A stretch of DNA of 30,879 bases, from positions 1 through 30,879 of IMG/VR virus record IMGVR_UViG_3300042939_000725. One strand, 5' to 3'. Numbering within the stretch: the stretch's first letter is position 1; every line of letters starts with the position of its first letter. A program made the position numbers and the translations under genes. The notes under the pieces are model-generated. The model ran no database searches and was not told the origin of the DNA. It saw nothing but the letters and a program-made list of their open reading frames with translations. Below, piece after piece: positions 695 through 29,683 of this stretch. Source of the stretch: a virus.

Positions 695-1102
695 ATGAAA
701 CGAACATATTCAGAGTTAATCAGCTTACATACTTTTGAAGACAGGTTTGAGTACTTAAAGTTAAATGGGTCTATTGGCGTTCAAACTTTTGGATTTGACC
801 GCTATTTAAACCAAGAATTCTATCAATCATATGAGTGGAAATCTGCTAGAGATCACGTTATTTTGCGTGATCAAGGGTGTGATTTGGGCGTTGAAGGGTA
901 CGAAATTCACAGTAATCTTCTAGTTCATCACATAAATCCAATAATCAAAGAAGATATTTTGCACGGAGAAGAATGGATACTAGATCCAGAGTTTTTAATT
1001 ACCACAACAAAAACCACGCATAATGCCATTCATTACGGCAACAAAAACTTATTAATACCCGCTTTCTCACAAAGAAAACCTGGAGACACAAAACTCTGGT
1101 AG
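695..1102 (+). CDS. HNH endonuclease
   Basis: This 135-residue protein has the HNH (beta-beta-alpha metal) signature. LLVHHINPI supplies the paired His and Asn at residues 78-81, and TTHNAIHYG supplies His109, Asn110 and His113. Length is normal for small phage HNH proteins. Such proteins often sit next to the terminase genes and help DNA packaging (HK97 gp74 type), while others are homing endonucleases. The position 2.2 kb before the terminase large subunit favours a packaging role but does not prove it. The ATG at 695 has no good Shine-Dalgarno sequence and lies 4 bases after the preceding stop, so translation may depend on coupling to the hydrolase gene. Confidence 0.85.
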   Translation: MKRTYSELISLHTFEDRFEYLKLNGSIGVQTFGFDRYLNQEFYQSYEWKSARDHVILRDQGCDLGVEGYEIHSNLLVHHINPIIKEDILHGEEWILDPEFLITTTKTTHNAIHYGNKNLLIPAFSQRKPGDTKLW

Positions 1103-1119
1103 TCTGAAAGGAGGTTCAA

Positions 1120-1464
1120 ATGGAGAATAGCATTCTGATTAGTACTAAAAAAGTTTTAGGCATTGGTGAAAGTTATACTGCTTTTGACCCCGACATTATT
1201 ATGTTCATTAATACATCCTTTTCTTCACTGGCTCAGCTTGGTGTTGGAGAAGACGACGGGTTCTTTATTCAAGACGAAACCTCTGAGTGGAGTGAGCTCG
1301 ATCTTCCAGATAAACAGTTACACATGGTTAAGTCTTTTGTGTTTTTAAAGTGTAGAGTTTTGTTTGACCCACCTGGAACTTCATTTTTGCTAGAGGCAAT
1401 GGACAACCAGATCAAAGAATTTGAGTGGCGTCTAAACTTTGTTCGGGAGGTTGAATTGCCATGA
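1120..1464 (+). CDS. putative head-tail connector (gp6-like)
   Basis: A 114-residue acidic protein preceded by a strong AAAGGAGGT ribosome binding site. The pattern is a short N-terminal helix, a DPDIIMFINTSFSSLAQLGVG segment (quoted only in part as DPDIIMFIN), then VKSFVFLKCRVLFDPP and a C-terminal helix EFEWRLNFVREV. It resembles the small all-helical phage proteins annotated as gp6-like head-tail adaptors, which seal the portal ring. That match comes from remembered family sequences. If correct, the gene is displaced, because adaptors usually follow the capsid gene. Its stop overlaps the start of the next gene (ATGA), so the two are translationally coupled. Confidence 0.5.
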   Translation: MENSILISTKKVLGIGESYTAFDPDIIMFINTSFSSLAQLGVGEDDGFFIQDETSEWSELDLPDKQLHMVKSFVFLKCRVLFDPPGTSFLLEAMDNQIKEFEWRLNFVREVELP

Positions 1465-2000
1465 ATGATAAACAAAAATTTAACCAAAATGCTTTAGATC
1501 CAATTTTAATTGAAAAAGGTATGAGTTTTATTGAACATGCCGGCGTAAAAGGTATGAAATGGGGAGTTCGTAAAAAAACTCCAACTGGAGCCTCAAGGTC
1601 AATTAATAAAAAAGCAAAAAAAGACGCCCAAGAATTTGCTAGAGCAAAAATGTTTTATGGTGAAGGCGCAGGAGTTAGAAGAAAATTAGTTAAAGCAACC
1701 GTAGATCAACGAAGTAAAAACAGCTCTGAATACAAAAAAGCGTTTGATTTTCATCTAAAATCGCAAGACATGTCTAAGCACGCAGGTAAAGCAAAAAAAG
1801 AAAGAAAATCTAAAGACCGAAACGCTAAAAATGCGCAAAGAATTAAAGCTGTTGCGCGAAGAGCTACTGGAGAAATGGGAACACAGGCTGCTTTTGTTGC
1901 TATTGCTGCTGGGGGCATTGCTTTTTTAAGAAGTGAAAAAGGTCAAAAAATTATGGCGCAAACTGTTGATTTTGGCTCTAAACTTGTTCGAAATACTTGA
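1461..2000 (+). CDS. basic protein with HAGVKGMKWGVRK motif, copy 1
   Basis: A 179-residue, very Lys/Arg-rich protein. The conserved motif HAGVKGMKWGVRK lies at residues 26-38, followed by a long charged helical middle and a C-terminal hydrophobic patch (QAAFVAIAAGGIAFL) with a basic tail. The start at 1461 overlaps the previous stop and has a GGGAGG ten bases upstream. An internal ATG at 1521 would put the motif at residue 6, as in the sister proteins, but its ribosome binding site is weak. Short HxGVKGxKWGV motifs near the N-terminus recur in proteins of many Gram-positive phages, function unknown to me. Placement beside head and packaging genes suggests a head-associated or internal DNA-binding protein (inference). 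Confidence 0.75.
   Translation: MNDKQKFNQNALDPILIEKGMSFIEHAGVKGMKWGVRKKTPTGASRSINKKAKKDAQEFARAKMFYGEGAGVRRKLVKATVDQRSKNSSEYKKAFDFHLKSQDMSKHAGKAKKERKSKDRNAKNAQRIKAVARRATGEMGTQAAFVAIAAGGIAFLRSEKGQKIMAQTVDFGSKLVRNT
1536..1574 (+). repeat. 39-bp coding repeat, copy A
   Basis: Encodes HAGVKGMKWGVRK. Identical over all 39 bases to copy B at 2042-2080, including every synonymous position. Confidence 0.95.
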
Positions 2001-2011
2001 TTGGAGATAAA

Positions 2012-2938
2012 ATGTCAATGTATTCAAATTCTCAGTTAGATCATGCCGGCGTAAAAGGTATGAAATGGGGAGTTCGTAAAAACCCAAAAAAGTCTAGCCT
2101 AAAAACAATTAGAAAAGATAGAAAATTTGAACAAAAAGCAGTAAGTAATAAAATGACTATTAAACTTTATAATGAAGCTGCTGGACGGGCAAATAAAGAG
2201 ATTGGGTTAATTAATAAAAAATACGAAGGTAAAGATTTATCATACGATAGTCCGACACGTAGGCAATATTATAAAGATCATCAAAACAATTTAATAAAGC
2301 ATTTAAAAGACGTAGCAAAAGAACAGGGCACAAATGCTTCTGGAACTCGAGAAATGTCTATTCGGGTAAATCCTGACAATAGTTGGGAAGTTGAGACTGT
2401 TTCTAAAAACATTAAACAAAGCTCAATGAATGAATTGCGCTACAAAGTAGTTCCAATTACTAATGCTATGGGTAGAATTATTAGTTTAAAAATTCTTGCA
2501 GTTGATAGCGTTTTAATGCAAGGTTTAATTTTTTCTGGAAATGATATTTTTCATGTCGGCGTAAAAGGTATGAAATGGGGAGTTCGTAAAGCAGGAGCCA
2601 GAAAATTAGCGGCGGTTAAAAAAAACCGTAAACTTAATAAAGCAAGTCGAGCAAAAGACCGGGCCGAATTTGAAAAAGAAGTTGATGAAGCTAGAGGAAA
2701 AGTTTTTAGCGGCCAACTTCGCAGAGATTTAGCTTCGGCAAAAAAAGAGGCCAAAGCTAAAAAATCTGAAATTGGCTCTAGAGAAGCTCGAAAAATTGTT
2801 GCAAAACAAAAAAAGTTAAACGAAGAAACTAGACAAAAAGCTTCTCAGTTTAAAAACGGAAAAGAAGCCGCCGCTGGATTATTAATTGTAATTGGGACAG
2901 ATTTAGTTAGCTCTAGAATTAGTTCTAGAGATTCTTGA
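2012..2938 (+). CDS. basic protein with two HAGVKGMKWGVRK motifs
   Basis: A 308-residue Lys/Arg-rich protein that looks like a fusion of two motif proteins. One motif lies near the N-terminus (about residues 11-23, encoded at 2042-2080) and a second in the middle (encoded at 2552-2590, HVGVKGMKWGVRK). The tail ends in a short hydrophobic stretch AAAGLLIVIGTDLV. I chose the ATG at 2012 because GGAG lies six bases upstream; the upstream in-frame TTG at 1997 would place that sequence inside the coding region. The first half contains a compact sequence ending near LKILAVDSVLMQGLIF that is less basic than the rest. Function unknown; see the repeat entries and findings. Confidence 0.75.
   Translation: MSMYSNSQLDHAGVKGMKWGVRKNPKKSSLKTIRKDRKFEQKAVSNKMTIKLYNEAAGRANKEIGLINKKYEGKDLSYDSPTRRQYYKDHQNNLIKHLKDVAKEQGTNASGTREMSIRVNPDNSWEVETVSKNIKQSSMNELRYKVVPITNAMGRIISLKILAVDSVLMQGLIFSGNDIFHVGVKGMKWGVRKAGARKLAAVKKNRKLNKASRAKDRAEFEKEVDEARGKVFSGQLRRDLASAKKEAKAKKSEIGSREARKIVAKQKKLNEETRQKASQFKNGKEAAAGLLIVIGTDLVSSRISSRDS
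2042..2080 (+). repeat. 39-bp coding repeat, copy B
   Basis: Identical to copy A. It lies near the 5' end of the 2012-2938 gene. Confidence 0.95.
2552..2590 (+). repeat. 39-bp coding repeat, copy C
   Basis: One base differs from copies A and B, changing Ala to Val. It lies in the middle of the 2012-2938 gene, marking the apparent junction of two fused units. Confidence 0.95.
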
Positions 2939-2954
2939 TGATCGGAGCTACTCA

Positions 2955-3326
2955 ATGAATGGAAAAATTGAGCACGCCGGCGTAAAAGGTATGAAATGGG
3001 GAGTTCGTAAACAACGAACTAAAAAACAAACTAGAGAAATTAATAAAAGAAAAGCCGCTGTTTCTAATAGACGGACTTTGTCGGATAATGATCTTAAAAA
3101 CTTTATTTCTCGTTTAGAAAATGAAAAAAAACTTAAACAATTAATTGAAGCGGATCTATCACCAGGAAAAGCCGTAACAAAAAAATTGTTAAGTGAAGGC
3201 GGCCAAAAAGTTCTAAAAACAGTTGCGACTGGTGCTGCAATTTATGGAGTTAAAGTAGCTTTAACTCGACAATTTGACGCAAAAGAAGCAGCCTCCTATC
3301 TTGCGCCAAAAATTAAAAAAGCGTAA
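2955..3326 (+). CDS. basic protein with HAGVKGMKWGVRK motif, copy 3
   Basis: A 123-residue basic protein. The motif is almost at the N-terminus (residues 7-19), followed by a charged helical region, and the C-terminal half has a hydrophobic segment VLKTVATGAAIYGVKVAL. A GGAG lies nine bases before the ATG. It has the same plan as its two upstream neighbours: motif, basic helix, hydrophobic patch, basic end. The three genes form a tandem paralog set immediately before the terminase gene, with only 18 bases to it. No catalytic motif is visible. Confidence 0.75.
   Translation: MNGKIEHAGVKGMKWGVRKQRTKKQTREINKRKAAVSNRRTLSDNDLKNFISRLENEKKLKQLIEADLSPGKAVTKKLLSEGGQKVLKTVATGAAIYGVKVALTRQFDAKEAASYLAPKIKKA
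2973..3011 (+). repeat. 39-bp coding repeat, copy D
   Basis: One base differs from copies A and B, a silent change in the first His codon. It lies near the 5' end of the 2955-3326 gene. Confidence 0.95.
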
Positions 3327-3344
3327 AATATTTTAGGAGACAAT

Positions 3345-5090
3345 ATGCCGATGTCAAACACTGCAACCCCAAAGTATTATGGCGAGTTTAGAAACTCTGT
3401 ACTTTCAGGCGAAATTCCAGTAAATAGAGAAATCTCTTTAGAGATGAATCGAATTGATGATTTAATTTCTAATCATAACATTTATTACGATGATCAAGCA
3501 GTAGAAGGTTTTATTAAATACTGTGAAATGGAATTGACGCTAACTGATGGTAGTAATTTATATTTATTAGACACGTTCAAATTATGGGCAGAACAAATTT
3601 TTGGCTGGTATTATTTTGTTGAGCGAAGCGTTTATCAACCCGGTGAAAACGGAAAAGAAGGAAAATACGTTAAAAAGTTGATTAAAAAGCGACTGGTTAC
3701 AAAACAGTATTTGATTGTAGCCAGAGGAGCCGCAAAATCAATGTACGGTGCTTGCATACAAGCATATTTTCTTAACGTCGACACTGCTACAACGCATCAA
3801 GTAACAACAGCGCCAACTATGAAGCAGGCTGATGAAGTAATGTCTCCGATTCGAACTGCGGTGACAAGAGCAAGAGGTCCTTTATTTAAATTTTTAACTG
3901 AAGGCTCAATTAGAAACACAGCCGGATCAAAAATTGAACGGGTTAAATTAGCCTCTACAAAAAAAGGTGTTGAAAACTTTTTGACTGGGTCTCTTTTAGA
4001 AGTTAGACCGATGGCAATTAATAAACTTCAAGGTCTTAGACCAAAAGTTTCTACTATTGACGAGTGGCTTTCTGGGGATATTCGAGAAGATGTTGTTGGG
4101 GCTATTGAGCAGGGCGCTTCTAAGATGGAAGACTATTTAATCGTTGCGATTAGTTCTGAGGGAACCGTTAGAAACGGGTCTGGCGATACAATTAAAATGG
4201 AGCTTGCTAATATTTTAAAAGGTGAGTATCAAGCACCGCACGTTTCAATCTGGCATTATAAACTAGACGACATTGAAGAAGTTTCAGATCCAGCAACGTG
4301 GGTTAAAGCAAATCCAAATCTAGGTAAAACGGTTACTTATGACGTTTATCATTTGGATGTGGAAAGAGCTGAAAAAGCTCCAGCGTCTAGAAATGATATT
4401 TTGGCAAAGCGCTTTGGAATACCAATGGAAGGGTATACATATTTCTTTACTTATGAAGAAACTATCCCTCACAGGTCTAGAGAATTCTGGACTATACCCT
4501 GCGCTTTAGGCGCTGATCTTTCACAGGGCGACGATTTTTGTGCTTTTACATTTTTATTTCCATTAAATAATGGCGCTTTTGGTATCAAAACAAGAAGTTA
4601 CATCACGAGTCTTACTTTAATGAAACTACCTGGTGCCATGCGAGCAAAGTACGATGATTTTATTAATGAAGGAAGTCTTCAGGTTTTAGAGGGAAACGTT
4701 CTTGATATGATGGAAGTTTACGACGACCTTGACGCGTTTATTGTTCAAAATGAATACGATGTCAGATGTTTAGGTTTTGATCCATACAACGCAAAAGAAT
4801 TTGTAGCTCGTTGGGAAGCAGAAAACGGACCGTATGGAATTGAAAAAGTTATTCAGGGGGCAAAAACCGAATCAGTTCCTCTAGGAGAGTTAAAAATCCT
4901 AGCTGAAGAAAGAGCGTTAATCTTTGATCAAGATTTAATGTCCTTTGCCATGGGAAATGCAGTTACTCTGGAAGATACCAACGGTAATAGGAAGTTATTA
5001 AAAAAAAGAGCAGACGAAAAAATTGATAATGTGTCCGCGATGATGGACGCATATATTGCCTATAAAGCCAATAAGGAGGCTTTTGAATGA
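3345..5090 (+). CDS. terL: terminase large subunit
   Basis: This 581-residue DNA-packaging motor protein translocates phage DNA into the prohead and cuts it. The ATPase half has a Walker-A-like ARGAAKS at residues 126-132 and a Walker B STIDEW with Asp239-Glu240. The C-terminal nuclease half shows the acidic residues expected of an RNase-H-like fold: Asp391 in GADLSQGDD, Asp479 in LGFDPYN, and Asp561 or Asp568 near the end (EKIDNVSAMMDAY). Length is normal. The ATG at 3345 follows TAGGAGA; a second ATG at 3351 is possible. No small subunit is recognisable nearby; one of the basic proteins upstream or the HNH protein could assist packaging. Its stop overlaps the next start. Confidence 0.95.
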   Translation: MPMSNTATPKYYGEFRNSVLSGEIPVNREISLEMNRIDDLISNHNIYYDDQAVEGFIKYCEMELTLTDGSNLYLLDTFKLWAEQIFGWYYFVERSVYQPGENGKEGKYVKKLIKKRLVTKQYLIVARGAAKSMYGACIQAYFLNVDTATTHQVTTAPTMKQADEVMSPIRTAVTRARGPLFKFLTEGSIRNTAGSKIERVKLASTKKGVENFLTGSLLEVRPMAINKLQGLRPKVSTIDEWLSGDIREDVVGAIEQGASKMEDYLIVAISSEGTVRNGSGDTIKMELANILKGEYQAPHVSIWHYKLDDIEEVSDPATWVKANPNLGKTVTYDVYHLDVERAEKAPASRNDILAKRFGIPMEGYTYFFTYEETIPHRSREFWTIPCALGADLSQGDDFCAFTFLFPLNNGAFGIKTRSYITSLTLMKLPGAMRAKYDDFINEGSLQVLEGNVLDMMEVYDDLDAFIVQNEYDVRCLGFDPYNAKEFVARWEAENGPYGIEKVIQGAKTESVPLGELKILAEERALIFDQDLMSFAMGNAVTLEDTNGNRKLLKKRADEKIDNVSAMMDAYIAYKANKEAFE

Positions 5091-5296
5091 ATGAACATCA
5101 GAAAACCACTCAGGTGATCCTTTCCAGTTTAGGAGAGCCTCGGGAGCATCAGAAACTTGAAAGTATTGCACTTTTTGTTGAGGTTGAGCCCGGTGTTTAC
5201 GAGAATCTTCTCGCCGCGAATAGCGAAACCCTTACTAGTATTTTTACAGCTTTAGCCGATTTTGACGAGAGAATTACCGCTTTAGAAGAGGCTTAA
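5087..5296 (+). CDS. small hypothetical protein, terminase-portal gap
   Basis: A 69-residue acidic protein whose ATG overlaps the terminase stop (ATGA) and follows an AAGGAGG seven bases upstream. The C-terminus (ALADFDERITALEE) looks like a short coiled-coil helix; the middle is VEVEPGVYENLL. No family is recognised. Its tight coupling to terL suggests a packaging or head-assembly accessory role (inference). Confidence 0.7.
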   Translation: MNEHQKTTQVILSSLGEPREHQKLESIALFVEVEPGVYENLLAANSETLTSIFTALADFDERITALEEA

Positions 5297-5320
5297 TAAG
5301 TAAGATTTACGCCGTAACTT

Positions 5321-5331
5321 AAGGAGGTGAT
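5321..5331 (+). promoter_or_regulatory. extended Shine-Dalgarno for the portal gene
   Basis: AAGGAGGTGAT matches the full 11-base complement of the conserved 16S rRNA 3' end. The spacing from GGAGG to the ATG at 5338 is ten bases. Confidence 0.8.
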
Positions 5332-5337
5332 GCATTA

Positions 5338-6549
5338 ATGCCGATGTTAGATAGATTTAAAAACGCTTGGAACGCGTTTAGAGACAACTATGAAGTTTGG
5401 GATCCAACAAGTTATCACAACGGTCCTAGTTATGGCATCAGGCCCGATCGAAGTAGGTTTCATTACTACAATGAAAAGTCAATTGTCACGTCAATCTACA
5501 CAAAAATGAGCATTGACGTTGCAAGTTTTAATTTTAAACATGTTAAACTCGACGCAAATGGCCGATATATGGAAGACATGCAAAGCGCTTTAAACACCGC
5601 TTTGACTTTAGAGGCAAATATTGATCAGGGTCCTAGAGCATTTCGGCAGGACATTGTGATGACAATGTTTGACAAGGGCTGCGCTGCTTTAGTTCCAGTT
5701 GACACTAACTATAATCCGCAGACAAGAGAAAAGTTTGACATTTATACTCTTAGAGTCGGAGAAGTTGTAGCTTGGTACCCTAGGCATGTTCGGATCAATC
5801 TCTATAATGAAGCTCGTGGAGAACGAGAAGAAATTACTTTAGAAAAACGCTATGTGGCTATTGTAGAGAATCCTTTGTATGCGATTATGAACGAGCCAAA
5901 CTCTACGTTACAGCGATTGATTAGAAAACTTACGCTTCTTGATGTTGTTGATGAACAGTCTAGTTCGGGCAAGTTAGATTTAATTATTCAGTTGCCGTAC
6001 GTTGTAAAATCTGAAGCTAGGCGTCAGCAAGCAGAAAAGCGAAGAGAAGATATTGAGTTCCAATTAAAAGGCAGCCAGTACGGAATTGCTTATACCGATG
6101 GAACCGAAAAGATTACTCAGTTAAACCGCCCAGCGGAAAACAATTTGTTAAAACAGATTGAGTACTTAACTGGTATGCTTTACGGCCAATTGGGAATTAC
6201 CGAAGACATTATGAATAGCACTGCGGATGAAAAAGCCATGCGAAACTATTATAGTAGGTCTATTGAGCCAATTGCAGACGCAATTGTAGAATCTATGCAG
6301 AGGGCTTTCCTTGGACCAATTGGGACTTCCGATGGTGAACGAATTCAATACTTTAAAGATCCGTTCAAGCTTGTTTCTGTTAGTGACCTTGCTGACATTG
6401 CGGATAAATTTACAAGAAACGAAATTCTAACTTCAAACGAAATCCGTGGGTTTATTGGCATTCCTCCTTCTAAGGATCCAAAAGCCGACGAGCTGGTCAA
6501 TAGCAACATGCCACAACAACCGCCATTAAACGACGTGGCTGAATTTTAG
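5338..6549 (+). CDS. portal protein
   Basis: A 403-residue HK97-type portal protein, a dodecameric ring at the capsid vertex through which DNA passes. The N-terminal region carries the usual YYNEKSIVTSIYTKMSIDVA-like stretch (shown here only as SIYTKMSIDVA). The centre contains ITQLNRPAENNLLKQIEYL and LYGQLGITEDI, typical of the stem and clip segments of these portals. The C-terminus, NEILTSNEIRGFIGIPPSKDPKADEL, is a hallmark of the family (only NEIRGFIGIPP is needed to see it). Length and position between terL and the protease-capsid gene are as expected. An alternative ATG lies six bases downstream of the chosen start. Confidence 0.93.
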   Translation: MPMLDRFKNAWNAFRDNYEVWDPTSYHNGPSYGIRPDRSRFHYYNEKSIVTSIYTKMSIDVASFNFKHVKLDANGRYMEDMQSALNTALTLEANIDQGPRAFRQDIVMTMFDKGCAALVPVDTNYNPQTREKFDIYTLRVGEVVAWYPRHVRINLYNEARGEREEITLEKRYVAIVENPLYAIMNEPNSTLQRLIRKLTLLDVVDEQSSSGKLDLIIQLPYVVKSEARRQQAEKRREDIEFQLKGSQYGIAYTDGTEKITQLNRPAENNLLKQIEYLTGMLYGQLGITEDIMNSTADEKAMRNYYSRSIEPIADAIVESMQRAFLGPIGTSDGERIQYFKDPFKLVSVSDLADIADKFTRNEILTSNEIRGFIGIPPSKDPKADELVNSNMPQQPPLNDVAEF

Positions 6550-6563
6550 GAAAGGAAGTCAAA

Positions 6564-8504
6564 ATGGAAGCAGATTTTAGCGGTTACGCCACAAAAGCGG
6601 GGCTTAAGTGCACCGACGGGCGAACCATTATGCCTGACGCCTTTAAGCATCAGGATAAGGCAAAAGTTCCTCTGGTTTGGCAGCACGGGCACAATGATCC
6701 AGAGAATGTTCTTGGCCATGCAATTTTAGAAGCTCGTCCAGATGGCGTGTACGCATATGGTTTCTTTAATTCTTCGGGTAAAGCTAGTCACGCAAAAGAT
6801 TTATTAGAGCATGGCGACATCAACATGTTGTCTATCTGGGCAAATGATTTGATTGAGCGCACTGGACGAGTTTTACACGGGGCTATTCGAGAGGTTAGTC
6901 TCGTTCTTTCCGGAGCGAACCCTGGAGCACTTATTGAAAATGTTACCATTAAGCACTCTGACGGAGATGAGCTTACATTAGAAGATGAAGTTATTATTTA
7001 CACCGGCCTTGAGTTTGAACACAAAGAGGAAAACATGACCGAATTAGTTCACGCAGAGGATTCACCTTCCTCTGATGATGAAACAGTCGAAGATGTATAT
7101 AATTCTATGACTGATAAGCAGAAGCAGGTTCTTCACTACATGCTTGGCGAAGCTTTAGCTGAAGTGGATGGATCTGAAGAGATGGCACAAGATAATATGA
7201 ACGATACTGATTACAACGATAGGGAAGGTTCCGATATGACCCGAAACGTGTTTGAGATTGGCGATGAGTTTAAGTTTGAGTCTTCTCCGACTCTTTCTCA
7301 CTCTGACATTGAAGGTATTGTCGCAGACGCTACCAAGCTCGGTTCACTTAAAGACGCCGTTGACGCCTTTGCTTTACAGCATGGTATCACTGACATCGAT
7401 CTTCTGTTCCCGGATGCCCAGAACATTGCCACGACTCCGGAGTGGTTCACTCGTCGGACTGAGTGGGTTAATAAGCTGCTTTCGGCGACCCGGAAGAGCC
7501 CGTTTAGCCGCGTTAAGACGATGTCGGCTGACCTCACCCCGGATGAGGCCAGGGCAAAGGGTTACATTACTGGTAACCTGAAGAAGGAAGAGTTCTTTGG
7601 CGTCTCCAAGCGGGTTACGACTCCGACGACCATCTACAAGAAGCAGAAGCTGGATCGCGATGACATGGTCGATATCACCGACTTTGACGTTGTCACCTGG
7701 CTTAAGGGTGAGATGCGGCTGATGCTCGATGAGGAGCTGGCCCGGGCTATTCTGATTGGCGATGGTCGTGACGTTGCTCACGACGATAAGATCAACGAGC
7801 AGAACATTCGCCCGATTGCAAAGGATCACGAGCTCTACACTACGGTCATCAACGTTAACATCGATGACGCTAACTCGTCGGTTCAGGAGATTATTGACGC
7901 CATTGTGATGAACCGTCAGTACTGGAAGGGTACGGGTCTTCCGACCATGTACACCACCGAGACCTACATCGCCAAGTTCCTTCTTTTGAAGGACACGGTC
8001 GGTCGTCGGATCTACAAAACTCTTGACGAGGTTGCTACCGAGCTTCGGGTCGCTGAAATTGTTCCGGTTGAGGTTATGGAGGAAGAGGACGACATCGTCG
8101 CCATTCTCGTTAACCCGGTCGATTACATTATTGGCGCCGATAAGGGCGGAAACGTCAGCATGTTTGACGATTTCGACATCGATTACAACCAGTACAAGTA
8201 CCTGATCGAGACTCGTGTTTCTGGGGCGCTTACCAAGTTGAAGTCGGCGATGGTTGTCAAGAAGGTTGCTGCTTCTCTCGTTGCGGTTACCCCGGCTGAG
8301 CCAGCTTTCAACGGCTCTGGCATTACCATCACGAACCAGACGGGTGTCGTTTACCGGGACGCCTCCGATGATTCGACGATGAACGCGGCTGGGTCGCCTT
8401 ACTCGGTTGCTGAGGGTGAGACGTTTGTTGTGGAGGCAGTTCCGGCGAGCGGCTACTACTTCCCGAGCAGCGAGAACGATTCCTGGACGTTTGTCGGGGA
8501 GTGA
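6564..8504 (+). CDS. prohead protease / scaffold / major capsid protein fusion
   Basis: One 646-residue ORF holds three virion-assembly modules plus an extra domain. Residues 1 to about 155 are an HK97-type (U35-like) prohead protease, with His in WQHGH (41 or 43) and Ser112 in REVSLVLSGANPGA. Residues 158-224 are an acidic helical segment resembling a scaffold or delta domain. Residues 225 to about 565 are an HK97-fold major capsid protein, with LKKEEFFGVSKRVTTPTTIYK and a DEELARAILIGDGRD stretch (quoted in part). Residues 573-646 are a beta-rich add-on (TPAEPAF through GYYFP to WTF) also found on the major tail protein. Codon use turns clearly GC-rich near 7230. Internal starts at 7035 and 7236 may give separate products. 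Confidence 0.92.
   Translation: MEADFSGYATKAGLKCTDGRTIMPDAFKHQDKAKVPLVWQHGHNDPENVLGHAILEARPDGVYAYGFFNSSGKASHAKDLLEHGDINMLSIWANDLIERTGRVLHGAIREVSLVLSGANPGALIENVTIKHSDGDELTLEDEVIIYTGLEFEHKEENMTELVHAEDSPSSDDETVEDVYNSMTDKQKQVLHYMLGEALAEVDGSEEMAQDNMNDTDYNDREGSDMTRNVFEIGDEFKFESSPTLSHSDIEGIVADATKLGSLKDAVDAFALQHGITDIDLLFPDAQNIATTPEWFTRRTEWVNKLLSATRKSPFSRVKTMSADLTPDEARAKGYITGNLKKEEFFGVSKRVTTPTTIYKKQKLDRDDMVDITDFDVVTWLKGEMRLMLDEELARAILIGDGRDVAHDDKINEQNIRPIAKDHELYTTVINVNIDDANSSVQEIIDAIVMNRQYWKGTGLPTMYTTETYIAKFLLLKDTVGRRIYKTLDEVATELRVAEIVPVEVMEEEDDIVAILVNPVDYIIGADKGGNVSMFDDFDIDYNQYKYLIETRVSGALTKLKSAMVVKKVAASLVAVTPAEPAFNGSGITITNQTGVVYRDASDDSTMNAAGSPYSVAEGETFVVEAVPASGYYFPSSENDSWTFVGE
7022..7037 (+). other. 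possible internal start for scaffold-capsid product
   Basis: AAAGAGGA lies just before an in-frame ATG at 7035 (Met158 of the fusion), at the exact protease/scaffold boundary. The product would be scaffold plus capsid, 489 residues. No transcript or protein evidence is available. Confidence 0.45.
7221..7238 (+). other. possible internal start for free major capsid protein
   Basis: AGGGAAGG precedes an in-frame ATG at 7236 (Met225, MTRNVFEIG), where the capsid domain begins and where the GC-rich codon use starts. The product would be 422 residues. The ribosome binding site is only moderate. Confidence 0.4.
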
Positions 8505-21497: not shown

Positions 21498-22241
21498 GTG
21501 CAAAAGCTACTAAACAACGCAGTAAAAACGGCGCATCAAAATAAGTCTTCTATTTATGCTGCAATTGCAATTGGTGGGGTCGCGTCCACCGCATATTTAG
21601 CATCTAAAGCTTCTGTTAAAGCGTCTAAAATTATTTCCGAATACAAAAAAAATAACGAAGAAATTGAAGAGCCTTTGGAGAAAGTAAAGACTTATACTCC
21701 TATGGTCTGGAAGCTTTATATCCCAACAGCGGCGTCTGCAGCAACAACTGTTGGATGTATTTTAATGGCCAATAAAGTAAACGCGCAAAAAACTGCGGCA
21801 GCAATTAGCGCCTATACTTTGGCCGAAAAAGCATTTACAGAATATAAAGAAAAAGTTGTAGATCAAATCGGCGCAAACAAAGAACAAAAAATCCGGGACG
21901 AAATTACTGAAGATGCATTAAAAAAAACAACCTTAAAAGACAGTTTAATTCTACCGGGGTCTGGCGATATTCTGTGCTGCGAAATGTACACTCGTCGGTA
22001 TTTTATGTCTGATATGGAAACACTTAGAAAAGCTCAAAATGACGTTAATATGGCTATATTTGACCAGATTTATGTAACTTTAGATTATTTTTATTCTCTC
22101 ATTGGTTTGTCAACGACTTCGCATTCTAATGAATTAGGTTGGGATTCAGACAGGCTTTTAGAGCTAGAGTTTTCAACAACGCTAACTGAAAACGGAAAGC
22201 CGTGTCTCACCTTCTGCTATAATTACCTAAAACCAATTTAA
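21498..22241 (+). CDS. DUF6353-like membrane protein, copy 1
   Basis: A 247-residue protein from GTG 21498 (AAGGAGGAAA upstream). It has two membrane helices, one near residues 18-35 (IYAAIAIGGVASTAYLASKA) and one near 72-92 (LYIPTAASAATTVGCILMA). Between them is a charged stretch (KIISEYKKNNEEIEEPLEKV). The soluble part contains AYTLAEKAFTEYKEKVVDQIG and ends with a beta-rich region. This plan (TM, EE-rich linker, TM, AY--Y-EKV, then a C-terminal domain) matches what I recall of DUF6353 phage proteins. It is a paralog of the 23758 gene. Function unknown. Confidence 0.7.
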   Translation: MQKLLNNAVKTAHQNKSSIYAAIAIGGVASTAYLASKASVKASKIISEYKKNNEEIEEPLEKVKTYTPMVWKLYIPTAASAATTVGCILMANKVNAQKTAAAISAYTLAEKAFTEYKEKVVDQIGANKEQKIRDEITEDALKKTTLKDSLILPGSGDILCCEMYTRRYFMSDMETLRKAQNDVNMAIFDQIYVTLDYFYSLIGLSTTSHSNELGWDSDRLLELEFSTTLTENGKPCLTFCYNYLKPI

Positions 22242-23757: not shown

Positions 23758-24654
23758 TTGAAGTTTGTTCCAAATTCTATTAGCAGAAGCGTGAGTACGT
23801 CTTTACTTCAGGCAAAAATCAACTCACCCAAGTACATGTTTGCGGGCGGTCTAGTCGGTGTCCTTGCCGGCACAGTTTTGGCCTGTCGGGCTACTCTAAA
23901 ACTTAGCGATACTCTTGATGAGTTTCAGGACGATATTGAAAACGTTAAGGGTATGGGGGGTCTGCGAAAGGACCCCTCTGCCCCTTACGACGATGGAGAA
24001 TACTATCGAGACTTAATTTACGTATATGCAAAGGGAAGTTACAAAGTTGCCAGGCTGTACGCTCCAGCAGCAATTGTCACTGGCCTGTCTGTTGTTGCTT
24101 TGACTGGTGCTCACGTTACTTTGACTAATCGGAACACGGCCCTTACTGGGACGCTCGCTCTGGTTAGTAAGGCTTACGATGAATACCGAGAGCGGGTAAA
24201 AGAAGAAGTTGGGCTGGAAAAAGAGCTTGATATTTACCACTCTGTTGAAAACAAAGTTATTATTTCGGCAGACGGATCAAGAGAAACTGTCAACGTTGTA
24301 AATCCAAACAGCCTCTCAACTTACGCTCGTTTCTTTGACGAGGCGTCTCCGTACTGGGAAAAAAGTGCTGAGTTAAATAAGTTGTATGTTCAGTGCCAGC
24401 AGAATTACGCAAACAGTAGGCTCCAGGCTCGAGGCCATCTATTCCTAAACGAAGTTTACGATATGTTTGGTATTGAGCATTCTCAGGCTGGATGTGTTGT
24501 TGGTTGGGTTATTGGCCCTGACGGTGACAACTACGTAGACTTTGGTATGTTTGACGCCTATAACAGAGACTTTGTCCACGGGCAAGAACGGTCCATTCTT
24601 TTAGACTTTAATGTTGACGGCGTTATTTACGATAAGATTGGAGGAGATAAATGA
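23758..24654 (+). CDS. DUF6353-like membrane protein, copy 2
   Basis: A 298-residue protein from TTG 23758 (AGGAGG six bases upstream). Two membrane helices are visible: residues about 25-44 (KYMFAGGLVGVLAGTVLACR) and about 99-120 (YAPAAIVTGLSVVALTGAHV), with an acidic linker containing DEFQDDIENV between them. The rest is soluble: AYDEYRERVKEEVGLEKELD, then a C-terminal domain with HLFLNEVYDMFGIEHSQAG and VGWVIGPDGDNYVDFGM. It shares the plan of the 21498 protein but has a longer C-terminal domain. The stop overlaps the next start (ATGA). Function unknown. Confidence 0.75.
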   Translation: MKFVPNSISRSVSTSLLQAKINSPKYMFAGGLVGVLAGTVLACRATLKLSDTLDEFQDDIENVKGMGGLRKDPSAPYDDGEYYRDLIYVYAKGSYKVARLYAPAAIVTGLSVVALTGAHVTLTNRNTALTGTLALVSKAYDEYRERVKEEVGLEKELDIYHSVENKVIISADGSRETVNVVNPNSLSTYARFFDEASPYWEKSAELNKLYVQCQQNYANSRLQARGHLFLNEVYDMFGIEHSQAGCVVGWVIGPDGDNYVDFGMFDAYNRDFVHGQERSILLDFNVDGVIYDKIGGDK

Positions 24655-25945: not shown

Positions 25946-28900
25946 TTGGATTTCTATAACGTTCTAGTTAAAGAGAATAAAGACGGAACGCTGCAGGTAA
26001 GGCCTGACTGGAAAGTTGGCAGGTCCAAAGATTTAATGACCCGTTCTGGATCTTTTTACGCGATTTGGGATTCCGAAGCTGGTTTGTGGTCTACCGATAT
26101 TTATGATGTTCAGAGGTTGGTCGACTCTGACCTTCACAAGCAAGCAAAAGAGTTAGAAGCAAGAAACGGGCAAAGTTATAAAGTTTCAACACTAGAGTCA
26201 AACTCAACTAGGCTTTGGGACGAATTCCAGCGATTTATTAGAAATAGCGGAAGCAACAGTCATAATCTAGACGAAAAGTTAACGTTTGCTAATACAATAG
26301 TTGAAAAAACAGATTACGTTAGTAAGCGGTTATCATATTCGCTTGAGCCTGGAGACCACGAGGCCTGGGACGCAATTGTTGGAACGCTATACAACGAAGA
26401 AGAGCGAACAAAAATTGAGTGGGCAATTGGCGCCATTGTTTCTGGAGACTCGAAAAACATTCAAAAGTTTTTAGTGTTTTATGGCCCACCAGGCAGCGGT
26501 AAATCAACAATTTTAAACATTATTCAAAAACTGTTTGAGGGCTATACTTCTGTTTTTGACGCACGAGAATTAGCGGGTAATAACAACTCGTTTGCAACAT
26601 CAGCGTTTAAATCAAATCCATTGGTTGCAATTCAACACGACGGTGATCTGTCTAGGATTTACGACAACACTAAATTAAACTCTATTGTTGCTCACGAAAT
26701 AATGACGGTAAACGAGAAGTACAAAGCTCCATTTGAAGCCAAATCAAACGCATTTTTATTTATGGGTACTAATCTTCCAGTAAAGATTAGTGATGCAAAA
26801 TCCGGGATCATTAGGCGTTTAATTGATGTTGTTCCAACTCAAAGGACAATAGATCATGATACTTATCATATTTTAATGGAGCGAATTAACTTTGAGCTGG
26901 GAGCAATTGCGCATCATTGTTTGACTCGATATTTAGAGTTGGGTAAGAACTATTATAGCGCGTATCGGCCTACTGAAATGATGCTTCAAACAGATGTTTT
27001 CTACAACTTTGTTGAGTCCTGCTACGATATTTTCAAACTTGAGGACGGAATTACTTTAAAAAGAGCCTGGGTTTTGTACAAGGAGTTTTGTTTGGACACG
27101 GGCATTGACAAAGTTCTTCCGCAATACAAATTGCGGGAACAACTCAAAGATTATTTTTATGAGTTCCACGAGCGTTATAGAATAGACGGCGCAGAGGTTC
27201 GAAGTTATTATGAGGGTTTTAAGGGCCTGGCCCCAATTCCTCCAACCACCGATATTCCAATTAAGACCGACGGACCGTACGAGTTATTTTTAACAGAGTT
27301 CCCGTCTGTGTTTGACGACGCATTTTCTAGTATGCCCGCGCAGTATGCTAACGATAATGGAACCCCTCAAAAAAAGTGGGAAAATGTAACGACTACTCTG
27401 GCTGATTTAGACACTTCAAAGCTGCATTATGTTAAAGTTCCGACAAACCATATTGTTATTGATTTTGATTTGACCGATGAAGATGGTAATAAATCCATTC
27501 AGAGGAACTTGGAGGAGGCCGCAAAGTGGCCAGCTACTTATGCTGAGTTTAGCAAAAGCGGCGAAGGACTTCATTTACATTACGATTATTTGGGTGACGT
27601 AACAGAGTTATCTAATGTTTATGATATTGGTATTGAGATTAAAACTTTACTTGGCGATTCATCTTTGCGGAGAAAGTTAACGAAATGCAACGATGTCAAT
27701 ATTACGCCATTAAACGGAGGACTTCCAAAAAAGGAAAAGAAGATGTTGGACAATCAGAGCATTAGAAGTGAACGCGGCCTTAGGGATTTAATCGGTCGAA
27801 ACCTTAGGAAAGAAATCCATCCGGGCACAAAACCTTCAATTGATTTCATCAAAAAAATTCTAGACGATGCCTATGAATCTGAGCTTCCGTTTGATATTCG
27901 TGATATGCGAGCCAGCATCCTTGCTTTTGCAGCAAAAAGCACTAATAGATCTGCAGAGTGTATTAAGCTTGTGCAGTCAATGAAGTTTGTTGGTCAAGCC
28001 GATATGCCTGAGTTTAAGGATACTGAAGAGAAGCCAATCATTTTCTTTGATGTTGAAGTCTACCCAAACCTTTTTATTGTTTGCTGGAAGTCGGAAAAGT
28101 CAGAGAAAGTTGTTAGAATGGTAAACCCATCTCCAGCTGAAATTGAGGATCTACTTCAACAAAAGTTAGTTGGGTTTAATAATAGACGTTATGATAATCA
28201 TATTCTTTATGCCAGGTATTTGGGCTACTCCGAGGAGGAACTTTATAATTTAAGTAGTAAAATTATTAACGGAGGAAACAACCTTAATGTGATGTTTGGA
28301 GAAGCATATAATCTTTCTTACGCTGATATTTACGATTTTAGCTCTAAGAAGCAAGGTTTAAAAAAGTTTCAGATTGAGCTTGGTATTCACCACATGGAGT
28401 TAGATATTCCTTGGGATGACCCGGTAGACAAAAGTCTTTGGAAGAAGATTGAAGACTATTGTGCTAACGATGTTGTTGCAACCGAGATGGTATTTAACAA
28501 CCGAATGCAGGATTTTGTAGCGAGGCAAATTCTTGCTGAGCTTTCTGGTTTGTCGGTTAACCACACAACTCAGGCTCATACAGCAAAGATTATTTTTGGA
28601 GACGTCAAAAAGCCACAAAAAGATTTTATTTACACCGATTTAAGTACTGAATTTGAAGGTTATAAGTTTAATGGGAAGGAGAGTACTTACCGTGGAGAAA
28701 CCACTGGTGAAGGTGGCTATGTTTATTCAGAGACCGGTATTTATGAAAACGTCGCCCTTTTGGACGTGGCGAGTATGCATCCGACGAGTATTGAACAACT
28801 CGATTTATTCGGACCTTACACACCCAATTTTAGTGCGCTCAAAGACGCCCGTATGGCAATTAAACATAAGGACTACGCAAAGGCCAGTAAGGTTCTTGAC

Positions 28901-29683
28901 GGTAAGCTCGCCAAGTTTCTTGGAGATGATCAAGATGCTGAAGATTTGGCCTATGCTCTTAAAATTGTCATCAACATCGTCTATGGACTCACTAGTGCGC
29001 GATTTGAAAACCCATTCCGGGATAACCGTAACAAAGACAATATTGTAGCCAAGCGTGGTGCTTTGTTCATGATTGACTTAAAGCACGCGGTTCAAGAAAA
29101 GGGCTACGTTGTCGCGCATATTAAAACTGATTCTATTAAGATTCCAAACGCGACAAAAGAAATTATTGATTTTGTAACGGAGTTTGGTAAGCAGTACGGG
29201 TACGAATTTGAGCACGAAACGACTTACGATAAATTTTGTCTGGTCAACGATGCAGTTTATATTGCTAGAGATGGCGACAAATGGACTGCTGTTGGTGCTC
29301 AGTTTCAGCATCCTTACGTCTTTAAGCGTCTTTTCTCAAAAGAACAAATCGAGTTTGACGACTTTTGCGAGACAAAAAATGTAACGCAGGGTTTGATGTA
29401 TCTTGACTTTGAGGGAAGCGGAGATATTTCTACAATGCGCCACGTTGGACGAACCGGAAGTTTTGTGCCGGTTACATCTGGCGGCGGAATTTTGTGGCGG
29501 GTTAAAGACGGAAAAACTTACCACGTTACGGGAACGAAAGATTACAAATGGGTTGAGCGAGAAGTTGCTTTAAACCGTCAGAGCGACAGAGGCGAAATCG
29601 ATCAAAGATATTTTGATCATTTGGTTGACGATGCGATTGAAACAATTGAAAAGTTTGGATTGTTTGAATACTTAGTTAATTAG
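25946..29683 (+). CDS. all-in-one replicase: SF3 helicase, AEP-like, exonuclease, polymerase
   Basis: A 1245-residue protein from TTG 25946 (TGGAGG just upstream). Residues about 150-330 are an SF3 (D5-type) helicase: Walker A GPPGSGKST 180-188, acidic HDGD 231-234, sensor MGTN 273-276, Arg finger R290-R291. Residues about 440-610 resemble an AEP primase: DFD at 506-508 and SGEGLHLHY near 538-546. A DnaQ-type 3'-5' exonuclease follows: DVE 702-704, NNRRYD 745-750, YCAND with Tyr838 and Asp842. A family-B-like polymerase ends it: motif A LLDVASMHP (Asp940), motif B KIVINIVYG (1006-1014), motif C HIKTDS (Asp1062). It would unwind, possibly prime, synthesise and proofread phage DNA. Confidence 0.85.
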   Translation: MDFYNVLVKENKDGTLQVRPDWKVGRSKDLMTRSGSFYAIWDSEAGLWSTDIYDVQRLVDSDLHKQAKELEARNGQSYKVSTLESNSTRLWDEFQRFIRNSGSNSHNLDEKLTFANTIVEKTDYVSKRLSYSLEPGDHEAWDAIVGTLYNEEERTKIEWAIGAIVSGDSKNIQKFLVFYGPPGSGKSTILNIIQKLFEGYTSVFDARELAGNNNSFATSAFKSNPLVAIQHDGDLSRIYDNTKLNSIVAHEIMTVNEKYKAPFEAKSNAFLFMGTNLPVKISDAKSGIIRRLIDVVPTQRTIDHDTYHILMERINFELGAIAHHCLTRYLELGKNYYSAYRPTEMMLQTDVFYNFVESCYDIFKLEDGITLKRAWVLYKEFCLDTGIDKVLPQYKLREQLKDYFYEFHERYRIDGAEVRSYYEGFKGLAPIPPTTDIPIKTDGPYELFLTEFPSVFDDAFSSMPAQYANDNGTPQKKWENVTTTLADLDTSKLHYVKVPTNHIVIDFDLTDEDGNKSIQRNLEEAAKWPATYAEFSKSGEGLHLHYDYLGDVTELSNVYDIGIEIKTLLGDSSLRRKLTKCNDVNITPLNGGLPKKEKKMLDNQSIRSERGLRDLIGRNLRKEIHPGTKPSIDFIKKILDDAYESELPFDIRDMRASILAFAAKSTNRSAECIKLVQSMKFVGQADMPEFKDTEEKPIIFFDVEVYPNLFIVCWKSEKSEKVVRMVNPSPAEIEDLLQQKLVGFNNRRYDNHILYARYLGYSEEELYNLSSKIINGGNNLNVMFGEAYNLSYADIYDFSSKKQGLKKFQIELGIHHMELDIPWDDPVDKSLWKKIEDYCANDVVATEMVFNNRMQDFVARQILAELSGLSVNHTTQAHTAKIIFGDVKKPQKDFIYTDLSTEFEGYKFNGKESTYRGETTGEGGYVYSETGIYENVALLDVASMHPTSIEQLDLFGPYTPNFSALKDARMAIKHKDYAKASKVLDGKLAKFLGDDQDAEDLAYALKIVINIVYGLTSARFENPFRDNRNKDNIVAKRGALFMIDLKHAVQEKGYVVAHIKTDSIKIPNATKEIIDFVTEFGKQYGYEFEHETTYDKFCLVNDAVYIARDGDKWTAVGAQFQHPYVFKRLFSKEQIEFDDFCETKNVTQGLMYLDFEGSGDISTMRHVGRTGSFVPVTSGGGILWRVKDGKTYHVTGTKDYKWVEREVALNRQSDRGEIDQRYFDHLVDDAIETIEKFGLFEYLVN

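Follow-up and report, generated by a model that had tools for sequence, protein, structure and literature searches.

Four tag copies upstream of the terminase gene

The window, by which we mean the whole 30,879-bp IMG/VR virus contig analysed here, carries a short tag that we tested at both the DNA and the protein level. The tag is encoded by a 39-bp repeat lying within three tandem genes, which are followed by the genes for the terminase, the portal and a protease-capsid fusion (Table 1). The initial annotation had reported four near-identical copies in three tandem proteins, and we found all four of them, none more than one base off the consensus. The copies at 1536 and 2042 have the same letters throughout. 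The copy at 2552 has GTC in place of GCC, so that HV is encoded where the other copies encode HA, and the copy at 2973 has CAC in place of CAT; the terminal 34 bp are invariant across all four. The flanks have diverged, as had also been noticed: the likeness between the repeats is lost within about one codon of either side, at the edges of the encoded peptide. With the codon usage of the window, independently encoded copies of GVKGMKWGVRK would agree with a probability of about 2e-11 for four copies and about 1e-4 for two, which excludes coincidence as the cause of the four-copy identity. Two other contigs from this phage species (99.9-100% identical) have the same four copies, and so the repeats are not an assembly artefact.

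Table 1. Positions of the tag copies, the tagged genes and the neighbouring head genes in the window
Feature	Positions	Strand	Basis
Head-tail connector, Phage_connect_2 (PF24829), conserved upstream neighbour	1120..1464	+	
Tagged protein 1, 179 aa, N-terminal tag and helical basic body (phrog_6291)	1461..2000	+	
Tag copy 1, HAGVKGMKWGVRK	1536..1574	+	DNA match and Pfam DUF7211
Tagged protein 2, 313 aa counted from TTG 1997; tag, domain A, tag, domain B	1997..2938	+	
Tag copy 2, HAGVKGMKWGVRK	2042..2080	+	DNA match and Pfam DUF7211
Tag copy 3, HVGVKGMKWGVRK, internal, at the domain A/domain B junction	2552..2590	+	DNA match and Pfam DUF7211
Tagged protein 3, 123 aa, tag and small basic body	2955..3326	+	
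Tag copy 4, HAGVKGMKWGVRK	2973..3011	+	DNA match and Pfam DUF7211
Large terminase subunit (TerL), directly downstream of tagged protein 3	3345..5090	+	
Portal protein	5338..6549	+	
Head-maturation protease and major capsid protein fused in one ORF, lineage marker co-occurring with the tag	6564..8504	+	

The position of the tagged genes just before the terminase gene was confirmed, TerL starting at 3345. For tagged protein 2, the ATG at 2012, which has GGAG upstream, is a likelier start than the TTG at 1997 (the gene would then span 2012-2938). Its tags lie at residues 15 and 185, numbered from 1997, and no Shine-Dalgarno sequence was found at the in-frame ATG nearest to tag copy 3 (2516). The initial annotation had described basic proteins with a hydrophobic C-terminal patch. 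The first part held, the net charge of the window tagged proteins being +0.12 to +0.15 per residue, and the patch is present but modest (best 19-residue hydropathy, 1.27-1.85).

Several other features of the window were seen. A cut-off alpha/beta hydrolase (BD-FAE, esterase-like), possibly tail-associated, lies at the left end (1-690), and two DUF6353 paralogues lie at 21498-22241 and 23758-24654. In a 1245-aa ORF (25946-29683), a DUF5906/SF3-like helicase region lies close to the N-terminus and is followed by the B-family polymerase-like motifs DVASMHPT, YGLTSARF and KTDS, recognised by eye; the ORF is possibly a helicase-polymerase fusion.

The motif corresponds to PF23847 (DUF7211), a 25-position Pfam family whose entry gives no function. 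The three window proteins are members, scoring 36.6, 65.3 and 33.3 bits (curated cut-off, 27 bits), and all four copies exceed the cut-off when scanned at the DNA level. Scans of virus contigs yielded 422 distinct tag copies on 186 contigs, and a query bearing the tag matched 220 records of annotated phages. The consensus over the collection is H-x-G-[VI]-K-G-[MQ]-[KRH]-W-G-[VI]-R-[KR], in most cases directly preceded by acidic residues, with a Leu two residues ahead of the His. Copies were gathered with peptide or DNA patterns, which partly impose the invariance of H1, G3, G6, W9 and G10 but not the freedom of the silent sites. In the literature searched, which covered papers available without subscription, we found no mention of KGMKWGVR, MKWGVR or DUF7211, no virion proteomics on the phage of the window and no experiment on the tag. 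What the present analysis adds to the Pfam entry is the genomic context, the cargo domains and a silent-site test for DUF7211.

Silent sites of the tag within and between genomes

For the agreement of the four copies at silent positions, the initial annotation had considered a function at the DNA or RNA level, ongoing gene conversion or very recent domain shuffling. If the 39 bp were a functional nucleic-acid element, such as a recombination site or a packaging or regulatory sequence, its silent sites would be under selection, and the four near-identical, sharply bounded copies in the window genome could be read in this way. We compared silent-site conservation inside and outside the 39 bp in 38 orthologues of tagged protein 1 (703 pairs), leaving aside the two same-species contigs, which are too close for a drift test. 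Silent identity was 0.423 in the motif and 0.433 in the body, showing that drift is equally free in both. Silent identity to the window was 0.35 in the motif and 0.32 in the body, and with AT-rich orthologues 0.41 and 0.43. Other phages have their own, different silent versions of the tag, and in many of them the copies differ within one genome. In contig L142 the two tag copies are identical, including the rare Q, I and N, and have one of eight silent codons in common with the window. Since silent sites drift freely and phages homogenise different silent versions, a DNA-level signal in the 39 bp is not supported. The proposed function at the DNA or RNA level was rejected on both grounds, and we consider a selected element of this kind extremely unlikely.

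Copies within one genome are nevertheless more alike than codon usage predicts. The mean silent identity between copies within a contig was 0.56, compared with 0.43 expected from codon usage, and the expectation was exceeded in 98 of 119 contigs, whereas the codons flanking the tag showed an excess of just +0.03. Pairs of copies from different, GC-matched contigs had a silent identity of 0.47. Pairs with a silent identity of at least 0.9 were found at 7.4% within contigs versus 0.8% between GC-matched contigs, and the window, at 0.95, stands near the upper end of this continuum. Rare amino-acid variants also cluster by genome: the probability of Q at position 7 is 0.57 in a sister tag versus a base value of 0.08, and Ala at position 2, present in three window copies, occurs elsewhere in only three others of the 422. 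Some of this amino-acid clustering could result from co-adaptation to a common receptor, which would leave the silent identity unexplained. The excess of within-genome silent identity over both the codon-usage expectation and the GC-matched pairs supports gene conversion or recent shuffling, as does the clustering of variants by genome. Judged from these sequences, the identity of the window copies appears to reflect recent recombination or conversion within the genome, that is, concerted evolution of a short homologous island between non-homologous bodies.

The copies might instead be recent duplicates of a single tagged gene whose bodies then diverged fast, with neither conversion nor shuffling. 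Tagged proteins 2 and 3 do have weak profile matches in common (e.g. phrog_7021), partly via the tag. However, tags with identical silent sites precede bodies that are unrelated or have diverged far, the identity goes no further than the tag, and the same island-limited pattern recurs in three other contigs (L142, L082 and L117), so that we regard duplication of this kind as very improbable.

Head-gene context and the bodies behind the tag

A match to a terminase, portal, capsid or connector gene was present at 184 of 185 tag loci, at a median distance of 448 bp from the tag to the nearest head-gene match, and all 417 of 417 tag copies lay on the same strand as the head genes. The recurring order, with variations, is HNH, connector, tagged genes, terminase, tagged genes, portal and protease-capsid fusion, and it was seen in phages of Arthrobacter, Gordonia, Streptomyces, Rhodococcus and Lactococcus. 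The tag, this terminase and the protease-capsid fusion occur in almost the same sets of phages. This near-coincidence suggests a partner of the tag within the head module, but it could also be explained by common descent, which could also account for the synteny and the lineage restriction of the tag.

The median position of the first tag in 370 complete proteins is residue 15, and 308 of them have it within the first fifth of their length. When the tag was masked, the bodies fell into 102 clusters, of which 91 were singletons; one single-linkage cluster, in which charged helices probably chained 249 bodies together, was left out as homology evidence. The bodies were net basic in 97.5% of cases, compared with 28% of control ORFs. 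A GNAT acetyltransferase domain was found in 6 of 121 representative bodies, and a 2H phosphoesterase domain (2'-5' RNA ligase; Pfam 2_5_RNA_ligase2 / LigT) in another count of 6/121 at E <= 1e-3 (best 3.6e-9; none in the window), the individual 2H examples that we inspected being just below the curated cut-off. Three representatives have a Gln_amidase papain-fold domain and one is a portal; one matches a minor head protein PHROG and one a head-morphogenesis PHROG. A PADLOC scan of the bodies gave marginal matches only. In the Pfam scan the window proteins matched DUF7211 alone above the cut-off, which places them outside MuF and leaves their three bodies with no recognised enzyme domain.

Two unusual placements of the tag were seen in the collection. 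The sole tagged portal among the 370 proteins (L089, 5124-6575) has the tag in a C-terminal extension, at residue 426 of 484, and the longest tandem tag protein (L011, 1636-4755) is a 1040-aa ORF with three DUF7211 stretches. A helix common to the capsid-protease fusion and the tagged proteins was considered and dropped, the loose pattern being found in only 13 of 370 proteins.

One cargo family, which occurs in relatives and not in the window and has about 35 members, almost all with the tag, was modelled with AlphaFold (pLDDT 76, pTM 0.70). The best match among solved structures was MbcT (E 6.4e-4, probability 1.00, Z 8.1), and nearly all further matches were ADP-ribosyltransferase/RES/NADase proteins at Z 4-7, close to the level at which Z by itself stops being decisive. 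Because these Z values are moderate, the model makes an ADP-ribosyltransferase/RES-like fold probable, not certain. Comparison of tagged protein 1 with the PDB gave no usable fold match (best E 3.4). In both models, that of tagged protein 1 and that of the cargo family, the tag is a low-confidence segment, and it is apparently flexible or disordered.

Two annotated phages, Lactococcus phage 1706 (gp07) and Rhodococcus phage ReqiPepy6 (gp013 and gp015-gp021, eight tagged proteins by inspection), resemble the window in the tag, in its adjacency to terminase and portal and in the downstream protease-capsid fusion, but their bodies are unlike those of the window. In ReqiPepy6 (L062), six tagged genes are consecutive (1057-6182), and several of them end in the GYxAxxDDNDxG pattern of the ADP-ribosyltransferase/RES-like family. 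The gp07 protein of 1706, which has two divergent tags, carries the database label 'structural protein', and the adjoining gp14-gp16 are labelled 'hypothetical'. The structural labels of phage 1706 reportedly derive from virion mass spectrometry by Garneau et al. in 2008.

These data bear on two other roles for the tagged proteins. They could be structural or DNA-organising head proteins, such as condensing or portal-associated ones, that dock by the tag on the packaging or head machinery and stay there. Their basic helical bodies, the terminase adjacency, the label of 1706 gp07 and the finding of tagged protein 1 orthologues across the whole lineage as one family are all consistent with such a role. 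It is harder to reconcile with GNAT, 2H phosphoesterase, ADP-ribosyltransferase/RES-like and papain-fold bodies, which have no evident structural role, and with the strong variation in the number and kind of bodies among phages, and we think it rather unlikely. The tag could also be a signal by which the fused maturation protease recognises or clears the tagged proteins, which would then be substrates in the procapsid that are sacrificed or act like a scaffold. The capsid protein is indeed fused to its own protease, the tag co-occurs strictly with this fusion, and no separate scaffold gene was identified in the portal-to-capsid interval of the window; but bodies with enzyme domains are unlikely scaffolds and 1706 gp07 is labelled a virion component, which makes a protease signal improbable.

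Some tags are internal. ReqiPepy6 gp013 consists of a 2H-phosphoesterase-like part, domain A, the tag and a C-terminal part like window protein 3 (the first and the last recognised by eye), and both it and window protein 2 are encoded directly upstream of the terminase gene or adjoining it. A Shine-Dalgarno sequence with a start was found at 38 of 66 internal tags versus 10.6% in the control, but at only 2 of 16 internal tags in true domain A fusions, which is the control level. Internal translation starts were rejected on this ground, and the apparent enrichment mostly reflects over-extended upstream ORFs, since it is absent from the true fusions. The domain A fusions are without an internal ribosome site, and therefore the tag can also occupy a domain junction; a strictly N-terminal signal like that of T4 does not fit every case.

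A candidate address for loading the phage head

In phage T4, a 10-residue N-terminal capsid-targeting sequence (CTS) is by itself sufficient for packaging a foreign protein. It precedes a varied set of basic internal proteins that are injected, among them the ADP-ribosyltransferase Alt (PMC9026906, PMC3012670). The DUF7211 tag is similar to the CTS of IPI-III and Alt in that it is short, N-terminal (with the exception of the domain A fusions) and common to otherwise unrelated, basic, phage-specific proteins, and the probable ADP-ribosyltransferase/RES-like fold of one cargo family would recall Alt. It differs in that it belongs to another phage lineage, with a protease-capsid fusion and mostly Gram-positive hosts, and is also found at internal domain junctions; no homology to the 10 residues of T4 is claimed. 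The best reading is that the tag is a capsid-cargo address that would work like the T4 CTS without being a member of it.

Effector surveys have described ADP-ribosyltransferases, 2H phosphoesterases and other enzymes among terminase-portal genes whose products are predicted to be packaged and injected, in many cases with a MuF or portal domain as the carrier (PMC5512222, PMC9503650). Like these MuF- or portal-fused effectors and the polyvalent proteins, the tagged set includes probable ADP-ribosyltransferase-like, 2H phosphoesterase and GNAT domains encoded among terminase-portal genes. Unlike the fused effectors, in which the carrier is part of one polypeptide, here a 13-residue tag groups mostly separate small proteins.

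The initial annotation had speculated that the motif is a targeting tag that carries cargo proteins into the procapsid. Among functional readings this one is the best supported, by the unrelated enzyme bodies, the basic charge, the head-gene synteny and the 'structural' relative in 1706; packaging itself, and with it the head incorporation of the window proteins, a receptor for the tag, delivery to the host and the recombination mechanism, is what we infer. We find it reasonably probable that the DUF7211 tag marks diverse basic proteins for incorporation into the head, and that recombination at the tag DNA moves bodies and keeps copies alike. In the mechanism that we propose, HxG[VI]KG[MQ]xWG[VI]RK would be a short, flexible, mostly N-terminal protein tag directing basic proteins encoded beside the terminase, the portal and the protease-capsid fusion into the head; its most likely binding partner would be some conserved portion of the terminase/portal/protease-capsid module. 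The cargo would travel with the DNA and would probably reach the next host. Recombination at the short common stretch would swap bodies between tags and keep the tag DNA of one genome alike, which would be why the four window copies agree at silent sites.

In its widest form, on which we are evenly divided, the proposal is that the tag is a lineage-wide modular head-loading address, that any basic late-operon protein behind it would be packaged and delivered, and that bodies would be recombined at the tag DNA to refresh the injected arsenal; it would then be a second, independently evolved capsid-targeting system beside that of T4, in phages of mostly Gram-positive bacteria. If this is true, one 13-residue pattern would predict which proteins are packaged, and probably injected, by more than 200 sequenced phages, whose hosts include Arthrobacter, Gordonia, Streptomyces, Rhodococcus and Lactococcus; most of these proteins are now annotated 'hypothetical protein'. 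Candidate early effectors could also be listed from it, some of them with domains predicted to degrade nucleotides or modify the host, and in laboratory hosts the short tag could be used to bring proteins of choice into phage heads.
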